A stretch of DNA of 64,000 nt from Woeseia oceani (GTDB taxonomy: Bacteria; Pseudomonadota; Gammaproteobacteria; Steroidobacterales; Woeseiaceae). The position numbers and the translations under genes are program-made. The stretch's first letter is position 1, and every line of letters begins with the position of its first letter. Under the pieces are notes generated by a model that had not been told where the DNA came from, did not search any database, and worked only from the letters and a program-made list of their open reading frames with translations. Shown here one piece after another: positions 27,372 to 54,940 of this stretch. The stretch is from NCBI RefSeq assembly GCF_001677435.1, contig NZ_CP016268.1, forward strand, positions 2,159,001 through 2,223,000, written 5' to 3'.

Positions 27372-27447
27372 TCCTCGGTAGCTCAGTTGGTAGAGCGATT
27401 GACTGTTAATCAATTGGTCGCTGGTTCGAGTCCGGCCCGAGGAGCCA
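27372..27447 (+). tRNA. tRNA-Asn (anticodon GTT)
   Basis: A 76-nt cloverleaf begins TCCTCGG and ends CCGAGGA, discriminator G and encoded CCA. The anticodon stem ATTGA/TCAAT encloses CTGTTAA, giving anticodon GTT. The T arm is GCTGG-TTCGAGT-CCGGC. The last 25 nt (27423-27447) recur four more times downstream in a 179-bp tandem array. Confidence 0.98.
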
Positions 27448-28201
27448 ATTATAGAAAGGGGTACCCGTTGGGTGCCCCTTTTTTTTGCTTGCAGAGCGGT
27501 CCGGACTCACCAGCCAGAATTCTGCGCCTTTCCCTTCAGAAGACACTGAAGATCAATCGGCACCAAACTACGGGCATTCACGAATCAAGGCGGGCCGATT
27601 GGGTTCGAGTCCGGCCCGAGGAGCCAATTATAGAAAGGGGTACCCGTTGGGTGCCCCTTTTTTTTGCTTGCAGAGCGGTCCGGACTCACCAGCCAGAATT
27701 CTGCGCCTTTCCCTTCAGAAGACACTGAAGATCAATCGGCACCAAACTACGGGCATTCACGAATCAAGGCGGGCCGATTGGGTTCGAGTCCGGCCCGAGG
27801 AGCCAATTATAGAAAGGGGTACCCGTTGGGTGCCCCTTTTTTTTGCTTGCAGAGCGGTCCGGACTCACCAGCCAGAATTCTGCGCCTTTCCCTTCAGAAG
27901 ACACTGAAGATCAATCGGCACCAAACTACGGGCATTCACGAATCAAGGCGGGCCGATTGGGTTCGAGTCCGGCCCGAGGAGCCAATTTTAGAAAGGGGTA
28001 CCCGTTGGGTGCCCCTTTTTTTTGCTTGCAGAGCGATCCGGACTCACCAGCGAGAATTCTGCGCCTTGTCCTTCAGAAGACACTGAAGATCAATCGGCAC
28101 CAAACTACGGGCATCCACGAATCAAGGCGGGCCGATTGGGTTCGAGTCCGGCCCGAGGAGCCAATTATGGAAAGGGGTACCCGTGGGTGCCCCTTTCTTT
28201 T
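27423..28201 (+). repeat. Tandem array of 179-bp units, each starting with the 3' end of tRNA-Asn
   Basis: Four full units start at 27423, 27602, 27781 and 27960 and a partial fifth at 28139. Each begins with the same 25 nt that end tRNA-Asn, including CCA, then a terminator hairpin with a T-run, then about 115 bp of spacer. The spacer contains a perfect CTTCAG/CTGAAG hairpin and CCGGACTCACCAGC, which is complementary to the tRNA T arm apart from two skipped bases. Units 1-3 are almost identical; unit 4 has scattered changes and unit 5 is truncated after its terminator. The layout is like the distal repeats of E. coli tyrT. Open frames across the array shift between units (179 is not a multiple of 3) and are not called as genes. 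Confidence 0.95.
27455..27486 (+). terminator. Intrinsic terminator after tRNA-Asn (first of five)
   Basis: AAAGGGGTACCC / GGGTGCCCCTTT forms a 12-bp stem with one G-U pair and a 3-nt loop, ending in eight T. Equivalent hairpins lie at 27634-27665, 27813-27844, 27992-28023 and, slightly altered, 28171-28201. Confidence 0.9.
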
Positions 28202-28220
28202 GCCTGCTCCAGTGACCCGA

Positions 28221-48572: not shown

Positions 48573-49601
48573 TCAGCCATTACTTGCTGAGTTGCTTGCC
48601 CGCTCGTCCAGCTCTTCGATGACATCTTCCGCGTCGTCTTCAGTATCGGCTTCGGCTTCGGCTTCGGCTTCGGCTTCGGCTTCGGCTTCGGCTTCGGCTT
48701 CGGCTTCGGCTTCGGCTTCGGCTTCGGCTTCGGCTTCGGCTTCGGCTTCGGCTTCGGCTTCGGCTTCGGCGGCTTCGGCTTCGGCTTCGGCTTCGGCTTC
48801 GGCTTCGGTAAAGTCACTATCGTCGACCGAATCGTCCGAACCGGACTCCGCGTCTTGCCCGTCACCGGCTTCTACATCCGCATCATCGTCGACATCAGCG
48901 TCATCACTATCTGCAAATGCACTTTCGCCATCGTCGCTGTCTTCGAAATTACCGTCGTCGTCGGAGTCATCCGAGTTCTCGGGTTTGGCAGCCGAATCCT
49001 CAAACTCAGGATCTTCGCCAGTGTCAACCGTGTCGCCCTCAACAGCCGGCAAATTGAGCTGGACCCGCAGACTCTCCCAATCCGAAAGGTCGGCAAGCGG
49101 CGGCAAGTCGTCAAGCTTCTTCAGGCCAAAGTAATCCAGAAACTGCCGGGTTGTACCGAACATCGACGGTCTCCCGGGCACATCACGATGCCCAACAACC
49201 CGTATCCAGTCGCGCTCCAGCAAACTGCGAATAATGTTTGAACTCACCGCGACGCCACGAATTTCTTCGATTTCCCCGCGCGTCATCGGCTGCCGATACG
49301 CAATCAATGCCAACGTTTCGAACAGCGCACGTGAATAGCGCGGTGGTCGCTCCTCCCAGAGCCGCTCAAGCCGCTCGGCCATAGTGGCCTTGACCTGCAT
49401 GCGGAAGCCGGAAGCGACCTCCGTCACTTCTATACCGCGCGGCTTGTACTCCTCCTGCAACTCCGTCAGCGCTTCACGTATGTCGGATTTTTCCGGCGAG
49501 GATGACTCGTCGAATAAGCCCTTGATCTGATCGATAGAAAGCGGTTTAGCAGCTGCCAGCAGTGCCGCCTCTACAAAATACTTGATTTCCGTAACTTCCA
49601 T
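48573..49601 (-). CDS. scpB: Segregation and condensation protein B with a long acidic Glu-Ala repeat tail
   Basis: ScpB is a tandem winged-helix partner of the SMC complex. Residues 1-170 are the normal ScpB core (EALTELQEEY, ETLALIAYRQPMTRGEIEEIRG, FGTTRQFLDYFGL). After it comes an unusual tail of about 150 residues: first an Asp/Ser/Glu-rich stretch, then 26 Glu-Ala dipeptides encoded by a GAAGCC hexamer microsatellite (20 and 6 copies split by one extra GCC). ScpB proteins are usually about 180-250 residues, so the tail nearly doubles it. Hexamer changes would alter tail length without shifting the frame. Confidence 0.95.
   Translation of the reverse strand: MEVTEIKYFVEAALLAAAKPLSIDQIKGLFDESSSPEKSDIREALTELQEEYKPRGIEVTEVASGFRMQVKATMAERLERLWEERPPRYSRALFETLALIAYRQPMTRGEIEEIRGVAVSSNIIRSLLERDWIRVVGHRDVPGRPSMFGTTRQFLDYFGLKKLDDLPPLADLSDWESLRVQLNLPAVEGDTVDTGEDPEFEDSAAKPENSDDSDDDGNFEDSDDGESAFADSDDADVDDDADVEAGDGQDAESGSDDSVDDSDFTEAEAEAEAEAEAAEAEAEAEAEAEAEAEAEAEAEAEAEAEAEAEAEAEAEAEADTEDDAEDVIEELDERASNSASNG
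48648..48806 (-). repeat. Hexanucleotide microsatellite in scpB
   Basis: On the plus strand GGCTTC is repeated 20 times without error (48648-48767), then one extra GGC (48768-48770), then six more copies (48771-48806). It encodes the Glu-Ala tail of ScpB. Confidence 0.98.
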
Positions 49602-53620: not shown

Positions 53621-54940
53621 TTACCTCAACTCCGCAGTCATGTCTGGATCGGCAACCAGCAAGCCAAGACCACGATAGTTACGTCCGGTCACGGCGATAC
53701 GCTCACCCACTGCCGGAGCAATGCCCCTGGACAGCAGTGCGGTGTAATCAACCGTAATACCGCTAACGACAGCACGCCCCAAGGTCGCATTGACCTCATC
53801 GACCGTGCCACGCAAGAAAGACGGCATGCCCGAATCGATACCGGTTGGAGATACCGAAACGATTCGTGTATCAACAAAACCGCCGGTAACGGTATCGATC
53901 GAGCCAAAGACCGCAATGGTCTCTCCGGTACTGATCCCTGCGAAATCGCTTTCAGCACCGAATACCGTCTGTCCTAACACTGAGATAAAGCCGTCGCCGA
54001 CTGCATCGACACTTCCGAGGGCAAGGAGGTCTGTGCCGTCGATGGCCCGAGCGTCCGTTCCGTCAATTGCAAAACCGTCGGTGCCGTCGATGGCCCAAGC
54101 ATCCGTTCCGTCAATTGCGAAACCGTCGGTGCCGTCGATGGCCCGAGCGTCCGTTCCGTCAATTGCGAAACCGTCGGTGCCGTCGATGGCCCGAACGTCC
54201 GTTCCGTCAATTGCGAAACCGTCGGTGCCGTCGATGGCCCGAACGTCCGTTCCGTCAATTGCGAAACCGTCGGTGCCGTCGATGGCCCGAGCGTCCGTTC
54301 CGTCAATTGCGAAACCGTCGGTGCCGTCGATGGCCCGAGCGTCCGTTCCGTCAATTGCGAAACCGTCGGTGCCGTCGATGGCCCAAGCGTCCGTTCCGTC
54401 AATTGCGAAACCGTCGGTGCCGTCGATGGCCCGAGCGTCCGTTCCGTCAATTGCGAAACCGTCGGTGCCGTCGATGGCCCGAGCGTCCGTTCCGTCAATT
54501 GCGAAACCGTCGGTGCCGTCGATGGCCCGAGCGTCCGTTCCGTCAATTGCGAAACCGTCGGTGCCGTCGATGGCCCGAGCGTCCGTTCCGTCAATTGCGA
54601 AACCGTCGGTGCCGTCGATGGCCCGAGCGTCCGTTCCGTCAATTGCGAAACCGTCGGTGCCGTCGATGGCCCGAGCGTCCGTTCCGTCAATTGCGAAACC
54701 GTCGGTGCCGTCGATGGCCCGAGCGTCCGTTCCGTCAATTGCGAAACCGTCGGTGCCGTCGATGGCCCGAGCGTCCGTTCCGTCAATTGCGAAACCGTCG
54801 GTGCCGTCGATGGCCCGAGCGTCCGTTCCGTCAATTGCTGCTAATGCAGTTCCATTCGCGCAAAAGATGCACGCCGTAATCAAACTTAACGCGCGCAATC
54901 TATGATTGTGGCGCTGGTTAAACTTTGCAATTTCGCTCAT
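53621..54940 (-). CDS. Secreted protein with 34 tandem AIDGTD octapeptides and a DUF5666-like C-terminus
   Basis: A 439-residue protein. Residues 1-34 look like a signal peptide (positive start, hydrophobic ALSLITACIFCANG, ending ALA). Residues 35-306 are exactly 34 octapeptides alternating AIDGTDAR and AIDGTDGF, with only a few Trp, Val or Leu changes. The last 133 residues contain two short beta-rich segments (GSVDAVGDGFISVLGQ and RGTVDEVNATLGRAVVSG, each followed by a VG/TGE-type turn) that resemble the DUF5666 family. The repeat carries a net negative charge and may form a solenoid or bind cations; this is inference. The two genes upstream on the same strand are DUF6502-like. Function is unknown. 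Confidence 0.8.
   Translation of the reverse strand: MSEIAKFNQRHNHRLRALSLITACIFCANGTALAAIDGTDARAIDGTDGFAIDGTDARAIDGTDGFAIDGTDARAIDGTDGFAIDGTDARAIDGTDGFAIDGTDARAIDGTDGFAIDGTDARAIDGTDGFAIDGTDARAIDGTDGFAIDGTDARAIDGTDGFAIDGTDARAIDGTDGFAIDGTDAWAIDGTDGFAIDGTDARAIDGTDGFAIDGTDARAIDGTDGFAIDGTDVRAIDGTDGFAIDGTDVRAIDGTDGFAIDGTDARAIDGTDGFAIDGTDAWAIDGTDGFAIDGTDARAIDGTDLLALGSVDAVGDGFISVLGQTVFGAESDFAGISTGETIAVFGSIDTVTGGFVDTRIVSVSPTGIDSGMPSFLRGTVDEVNATLGRAVVSGITVDYTALLSRGIAPAVGERIAVTGRNYRGLGLLVADPDMTAELR
54023..54838 (-). repeat. 17 tandem copies of a 48-bp unit
   Basis: Seventeen near-identical 48-bp units in frame encode the AIDGTD octapeptide pairs. Because 48 is a multiple of 3 and no unit has a stop in several frames, long open frames appear on both strands here; only the minus-strand frame with the signal peptide is called. 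Confidence 0.97.

Follow-up and report, generated by a model that had tools for sequence, protein, structure and literature searches.

For a long time the repeats behind tyrT of Escherichia coli, which are linked to the rtT (RttR) RNA and the Tpr protein, seemed peculiar to a single locus; Rfam includes an RtT family. In this study, we analyzed a comparable array behind the tRNA-Asn gene of Woeseia oceani (Gammaproteobacteria, family Woeseiaceae), in a stretch of 64,000 nt referred to here as the window (contig NZ_CP016268.1, positions 2,159,001 to 2,223,000; coordinates below count from its first nucleotide). At both loci, units of ~178-179 bp follow a tRNA gene and each unit holds the 3′ end of that tRNA. 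The unit number of rtT is variable in Salmonella, where one table lists an 'rtT RNA 175 bp VNTR' (variable-number tandem repeat; PMC2658671). Several members of a cluster of bacterial interspersed mosaic elements (BIMEs) resemble rtT (PMC2965389), and on this ground the inner core at tyrT, too, may be a dispersed palindrome. Repetitive extragenic palindromes (REPs) and BIMEs of the GTAG and CGTC super-families are described in PMC3733652 as short, dispersed palindromes that occur singly or in clusters, are restricted in distribution and in some cases have no dedicated transposase.

We observed that the W. oceani units contain a 59-nt palindrome, here called E, that shares these REP and BIME traits. 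The tyrT-type layout (tRNA tail, terminator, antisense T arm, palindromic core, next tail) recurs within this one family behind several tRNA genes and, in part, behind tmRNA and 5S rRNA genes. We describe here a REP-like repeat that comes with duplicated tails at stable-RNA genes and that has a recognizable dispersed core and a defined junction. Our preferred reading, which we hold to be probable with ample room for doubt, is that the array derives from E as a palindromic repeat of the family, REP-like and without a known transposase, which would join at HGG (H, any base except G) and duplicate gene 3′ ends, followed by local amplification. The core sequence, the junction and dozens of natural copies make both origin and mechanism testable.

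The tRNA-Asn array consists of 179-bp units

The tRNA-Asn gene (GTT; ARAGORN) lies at 27372..27447 on the plus strand, as do all array features given here. Its native tail, the last 23 nt of the gene, occupies 27425-27447 and is preceded by GG at 27423-27424. The tail sequence TTCGAGTCCGGCCCGAGGAGCCA starts at 27425, 27604, 27783, 27962, and 28141, a spacing of 179 nt four times over. Tandem Repeats Finder reported the same period in the window (27423-28207, 4.4 copies, 98% match, 0% indels), and the five tRNA-Asn tails at exact 179-bp spacing that a preliminary description of this DNA had claimed are thereby borne out. The array comprises four complete units and one last tail. Each unit runs from the tail with its CCA through an intrinsic terminator, an antisense T-arm copy, ~30 nt, and E to the next tail.

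The terminator of unit 1 lies at 27453..27486 and is repeated at 27632, 27811, and 27990. The antisense T-arm copy (CGGTCCGGACTC--ACCAGC), which lacks the GA opposite the T loop, lies at 27497..27514 with repeats at +179, +358, and +537. E copy 1 spans 27545..27603 (stem 27554-27561 / 27594-27601, then GG at 27602-27603), and model matches place copies 2 to 4 at 27724..27782, 27903..27961, and 28082..28140. The tail copies that follow are at 27604..27626, 27783..27805, and 27962..27984; the last, with a degenerate terminator, is at 28141..28203, and no E lies beyond it. A terminator scan listed four terminators in the array. The fifth copy (about 28171-28203) is changed and its T-run is interrupted, so that the perfect terminator previously assigned to every tail belongs to the first four. 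Similarly, the conserved spacer said to follow is present in four units, where it holds the defined hairpin E, and neither spacer nor E follows the fifth tail.

Units 1 to 3 show 100% identity to one another outside the tail, against 95% for unit 4 (E, 98%). The repeat identity alone excludes a chance origin of the array, and the three identical units point to recent local multiplication. Because the W. oceani genome is one 4.06-Mb contig and a contig of a congener's metagenome-assembled genome (G001) shows the same layout downstream of tRNA-Asn, where the tail sequence is that contig's own, the array is not an artefact of a single assembly; the exact unit number comes from one assembly only. 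A similar array in a relative, on which the preliminary description had made its reading depend, was thus found. In each species the tail copies match the species' own gene (GGCCCGAGGAGCCA in W. oceani, GGGTCGGGGAGCCA in the congener).

The unit has a very stable predicted fold (z = −4.35, terminator included), and a scan of the array returned no sigma-70-like site inside the units. In an Rfam search of the array, only tRNA exceeded its gathering score; we judged the weaker rows to be chance. Open reading frames (ORFs) that cross the units have TTG or GTG starts. The minus strand of the units contains a repeated 46-aa ORF with a GTG start (27585-27725 and 27406-27546), whose first copy differs at the end.

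The likeness to tyrT is real and extends further than first described. Units after tyrT and tyrV of E. coli MG1655 likewise hold a T-arm copy in antisense (length, 22 nt; score 29, with 0/500 shuffles as high in each). The accessible parts of PMC2965389 and PMC2658671 make no mention of this antisense tRNA-Tyr copy, seen in the E. coli tyrT/tyrV stretch (L079). The two systems differ in where the tail begins: the E. coli copy starts at ATCC, without GGTTCG, whereas the W. oceani tail starts at GG-TTC. They differ also in that the Woeseiaceae unit type occurs at many RNA genes. The E model returned no row in the E. coli tyrT/tyrV stretch, and RtT was absent from the 30 rows up to E-value 10 that Rfam gave for the array. 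The earlier proposal that the loci are convergent or anciently related thus retains its likeness, and common descent is unsupported. The array may well work like tyrT/rtT, for which the likeness is good, although by sequence it does not fall within that family. Judged by its sequence, the core of the Woeseiaceae unit is a different, family-specific REP-like repeat and not the tyrT core. No description of such arrays was found in the open-licence literature searched by title and start of abstract.

E is a dispersed palindrome restricted to Woeseiaceae

E begins with ACTRAAGAT and has the stem CAATCSGC/GCSGATTG around a variable loop; GG and then the tail follow. We aligned 25 representatives, collected by a pattern that demands much of the arms. 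They share an 8-bp stem, a mostly unpaired R, two weaker pairs, and a loop of ~30 nt that varies by place. ACTRAAGAT is common to all 25, apart from a few changes at bases 1 and 4. Stem pairing reached 97.2%, and the S:S pair was C-G in 16 and G-C in 9. Among 96 distinct matches, in an alignment fitted to the model, 95.5% of cells were paired, with two-sided changes in 8/10 pairs. In the 8-bp stem, 41 cells had changed on both sides, 2 had turned G-U, and 15 were unpaired. The rarity of G-U intermediates suits a constraint acting on a DNA palindrome better than one acting on an RNA stem.

Matches to the E model occurred in 39/107 Woeseiaceae genomes and 10/12 genera, counts that are lower bounds under our strict filters with at most 51 candidates scored per genome. 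Two Woeseiaceae genomes had the highest copy numbers, 37 and 38. In a class sample of 274 genomes, six had an E match at E-value ≤0.01, and the match was strong only in W. oceani. The other five had one weak match each (E-value 0.0016-0.009), with ~3 expected by chance; one of them belongs to the same family (G010, E-value 0.004) and the remaining four come from elsewhere. A pattern scan of a species collection gave at least 120 stretches, and the 80 listed comprised 34 titled Woeseia or Woeseiaceae, 42 from metagenome-assembled genomes titled Proteobacteria or Gammaproteobacteria, and 4 others. E is a dispersed repeat restricted to Woeseiaceae.

Every one of the 10 model matches in W. oceani follows a stable-RNA gene. 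The tRNA-Asn gene accounts for four, one tRNA-Met gene for three, a second tRNA-Met gene for two, and the 5S rRNA gene, whose 3′ end is repeated at 212 nt, for one. Other genomes have E and a tail copy behind tRNA-Leu, two tRNA-Thr, and tmRNA. The preliminary description, which spoke of the tyrT architecture at a different tRNA, was therefore too narrow. A tRNA or tmRNA lay within 300 nt of 25/92 E (24/90 with identical E counted once), as compared to 165/20,140 control positions taken >1 kb from E within the same 80 pattern-scan loci. E is mostly intergenic; 18/90 fall in an ORF under a crude ORF choice. Under the same choice, E away from tRNAs had a left neighbor on the same strand in 19/36 and a right neighbor in 13/36, which is no clear strand preference.

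A class-wide search for three exact T-loop motifs at 163-192-nt spacing, which by its design misses two-unit arrays and tyrT-type tails, returned 8/369 genomes; seven of these were tandem tRNA genes, and W. oceani alone had a tail array.

Several loci showed additional arrangements. A cluster of tRNA-Leu, Lys, His, Arg, and Pro genes (L191; G009:C4:6800-9000) contains seven E in both orientations, two of which end at the 3′ end of an opposite-sense tRNA gene. A GTAGGAGC hairpin, not part of E, lies upstream of some E copies. At four loci (L071, L227, L228, and L229), a REP-like hairpin of the GTAGGA type starts 46 nt before E (distance counted by eye) and an apparent partial inverted hairpin follows E, giving the look of composite elements.

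At many loci E lies between duplicated sequence ends joined at GG

We compared the 30-nt right flank of E with the sequence upstream. The flank recurred there for 65/125 E, with the score cutoff set so that 1% of 1464 mismatched pairs lay above it. At 37/80 loci, E is flanked by copies of local sequence and the native copy could be placed. GG directly preceded the native copy at 25/37 loci (background 6.6%), and the base before this GG was not G in 24/25. The stem foot of E is thus joined to an HGG that leads into the copied sequence, which for tRNAs means the T arm at GG-TTC. The copied sequence is not always a stable-RNA gene. It is the end of a 147-aa ORF at L067, other sequence at L064, L192, and L207, and the 3′ arm of terminator-like hairpins at L202, L204, and L217 (the scan listed only the L204 hairpin as a terminator on that strand; T-runs are visible in the sequence of L202 and L217). 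Units behind tRNA-Leu are only 62% alike outside E and retain the architecture, and units of differing sequence are stacked behind one tRNA-Leu.

These data suggest a two-step origin. In the first step, E would insert or template-switch behind a gene, its right end (the foot of the 8-bp stem, ...GATTG) being joined to the GG in the tRNA T arm (H-GG-TTCGA). The tail and terminator would thereby be duplicated and the gene would stay intact, leaving E between two gene 3′ parts, of which the left one belongs to the complete gene and the right one is a tail copy. The second step is shown by the identity of the W. oceani units: the 179-bp unit (tail, terminator, antisense T arm, E, GG) multiplied locally and recently, presumably by unequal exchange or because E joined that GG again. 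The dispersal and patchiness of E, its junction, and its duplicated flanks argue for placement of E and joining at HGG. We infer that E moves and that the joining is enzymatic, although the loops vary from copy to copy and our search turned up no empty site.

Plain slippage or tandem duplication at microhomology could yield the same layout with no dedicated system, if an old E lay beside a tRNA gene and the polymerase slipped between the GGG at the E end and the GG of the T arm. Hairpins promote replication slippage, the window holds identical units, and the bases shared at the junction numbered exactly 2 at 26/37 loci. Chance microhomology, however, should vary in length and position; instead, one dinucleotide recurs across many genomes and gene types, and the base ahead of it is other than G in 24/25 GG junctions. 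Slippage also leaves the placement of E behind stable RNAs unexplained, and we consider it unlikely.

Degenerate attachment sites are another conceivable source, in which integrase-borne elements integrated repeatedly at the T loop and left miniature remnants. The tail does span the T loop to the gene 3′ end, which matches what is described for T-loop integrases, for example the phage Ms6 enzyme (PMC1762012), and the stacked, differing units behind one tRNA-Leu would fit. A single E core at tRNAs, tmRNA, 5S rRNA, terminators, and a protein gene does not. No integrase lies inside the repeated unit, 179 bp being too short for one, and no transposase or integrase was recognized by eye in the ORF lists between neighboring E copies at L251 and L254, where no family search was made. 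The full E pattern had 0 exact matches in viral contigs; the fused motif GCCGATTGGGTTCGARTCC occurred in two of them, where the E model gave no row. Among the matches listed for phage and plasmid records, the best places covered 9-14% of the query, around the tRNA-Asn gene. We regard an attachment-site origin as very improbable.

Two further observations concern T-arm sequences. Two near-identical viral stretches (L056 and L057) carry GCCGATTGGGTTCGAGTCC in T-arm-like sequence, in which ARAGORN found no tRNA and the E model had no match. Behind the tRNA-Asn of G012 (L060, 470-1315) we observed another tail repeat without E, whose copy from TAAATCAATTGG reaches further into the tRNA and lies ~770 nt downstream; it looks like a mini-island with ordinary attachment-site repeats.

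An antisense T arm accompanies E at several RNA genes

The T-arm region of the gene concerned was reverse-complemented and aligned locally to the 85 nt before E, and the score was compared with those of 500 shuffles. At the W. oceani tRNA-Asn, the score was 25 and no shuffle was as high. Shuffles reached the score 6, 13, and 2 times at the tRNA-Asn of G001, G017, and G023, 0 times and once at the two W. oceani tRNA-Met, twice at tRNA-Thr CGT, and 0 times at 5S rRNA, where the offset is different. The tRNA-Asn of G115 was marginal (42/500). An antisense copy was not detected by this test at tRNA-Leu of G012 and G017 (195 and 224 of 500), tRNA-Thr TGT (321), tmRNA (73), tRNA-Asn of G074 (122), or a G004 locus (244). 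Across distinct tRNA-Asn loci, the median score was 16 with E (n = 7) and 12 without E (n = 24; P = 0.003), and the antisense T arm therefore tends to accompany E.

The copy sits ~48 nt before E in units at several tRNA-Asn, both tRNA-Met, and one tRNA-Thr. With this spacing, found at several stable-RNA genes, the unit DNA or RNA could fold with the antisense copy paired to the tail and E at the tip. An outer stem as a general rule for all E found no support. Duplex energies between the right flank and the upstream sequence were only slightly better than those of mismatched pairs (median −22.9 versus −21.1, P = 0.003), with 11/123 beyond the 5% level and 1 beyond the 1% level. A position test gave 47/151 against a control mean of 21.3 (maximum 33), and counts were raised further upstream also. 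Because the duplex energies barely beat mismatched pairs, the antisense copy is a feature of some loci and not of all.

The units could instead be rtT-like RNA genes, whose readthrough RNAs would pair through the antisense T arm with the T arm of the tRNA or with the tail copy; unit number would then tune tRNA maturation or release small RNAs. The constant place of the antisense copy in several tRNA units, its strength at E-bearing tRNA-Asn loci, the very stable unit fold, the architecture retained by the divergent tRNA-Leu units, and the shared antisense copy at E. coli tyrT and tyrV are all consistent with such RNAs. Four terminators in a row and the lack of a sigma-70-like site in the units speak instead against extensive transcription past the first terminator, and hence against the released small RNAs and copy-dependent readthrough that the preliminary description had put forward. 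Further, E far from tRNAs shows no clear strand preference, G-U intermediates are rare in its stem, and the strict test missed the antisense copy at the six loci given above. An RNA function is possible, but as a general explanation it has the terminators, the missing sigma-70-like site, and the strand data against it, and we rate it as rather unlikely.

A more far-reaching version of element-driven joining is that E represents a class of transposase-less hairpins directed to structured-RNA genes by base pairing. The antisense copy, at a fixed distance before the hairpin, would be the guide. Joining of the foot would take place at HGG in the T loop, with the element supplying a 3′ end by which the gene is made whole again. 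On this view, E. coli rtT, built on a different hairpin core, would be a remote counterpart in function. Should the antisense copy indeed be the guide, DNA would be targeted to structured-RNA genes by a novel route. We regard this proposal as quite speculative and improbable.

Relation of E to mobile elements and weighing of its role

E fits a REP-like dispersed palindrome in the wide sense, being numerous, dispersed, mostly intergenic, and covarying. It differs from the described REPs and BIMEs in that it ends in neither GTAG nor CGTC, its conserved ends being ACTRAAGAT and GG. Its loop of ~30 nt contrasts with 2-20 and 4-5 nt in a table of PMC3733652. Further differences are its enrichment at tRNAs and the duplicated gene ends, joined at GG, on either side of it. 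The same source describes CGTC REPs as lacking a dedicated transposase (PMC3733652), so a REP-like E without one would not be unique.

Elements of other kinds share single traits with E. The dinucleotide junction and the target-complementary sequence nearby recall the IS110 elements with their bridge RNA, which have a dinucleotide junction and sequence complementary to the target beside the element. In E, however, both target halves are matched on one strand, unlike in the bridge RNA, and the transposase does not track E. Integron attC sites are imperfect hairpins with an unpaired base and a variable tip that stand at the 3′ end of a unit, giving arrays of units and hairpins. The hairpin of E likewise has an unpaired base and a variable tip and ends each arrayed unit; the GTTRRRY/RYYYAAC core of attC was not seen in the E alignment.

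Several results weigh against E as a joining element that duplicates gene 3′ ends. We rejected a REP-type Y1 transposase as its carrier, as this enzyme is absent from W. oceani (G000), G009, and G125, and 0/14 Y1 loci had a convincing E match. We also rejected the IS110 (DEDD) transposase, present in 5/16 genomes tested, namely in 3/10 with E (G000, G012, and G125) and 2/6 without. A duplicated flank was missing for 60/125 E, and 12/37 junctions, that of 5S rRNA included, had no GG. The 25 loci with GG are not independent, since many are tRNA T arms that carry GG anyway. GG followed the stem foot in 125/151 non-redundant E (76/94 excluding pattern-scan loci), a count biased by a pattern and a model built from GG-ending copies. 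The loci behind the flank-repeat (65/125) and junction (37) counts were picked from the best hits. A search at the second W. oceani tRNA-Met locus gave mainly tRNA-level matches and no clean empty site. Finally, the E loops differ between loci, for which reason recent copying from one source is not demonstrated, and conserved arms with free loops could equally reflect selection for a binding site.

Other repeats in the window

Two further tandem repeats lie in the window, both within minus-strand ORFs. At 48646-48808, ~28 copies of TCGGCT within a 342-aa ORF (48573-49601) would give a dipeptide repeat. At 54029-54838, ~17 copies of a 48-bp unit, 98% alike, lie within a 439-aa ORF (53621-54940) and would give a 16-residue protein repeat.
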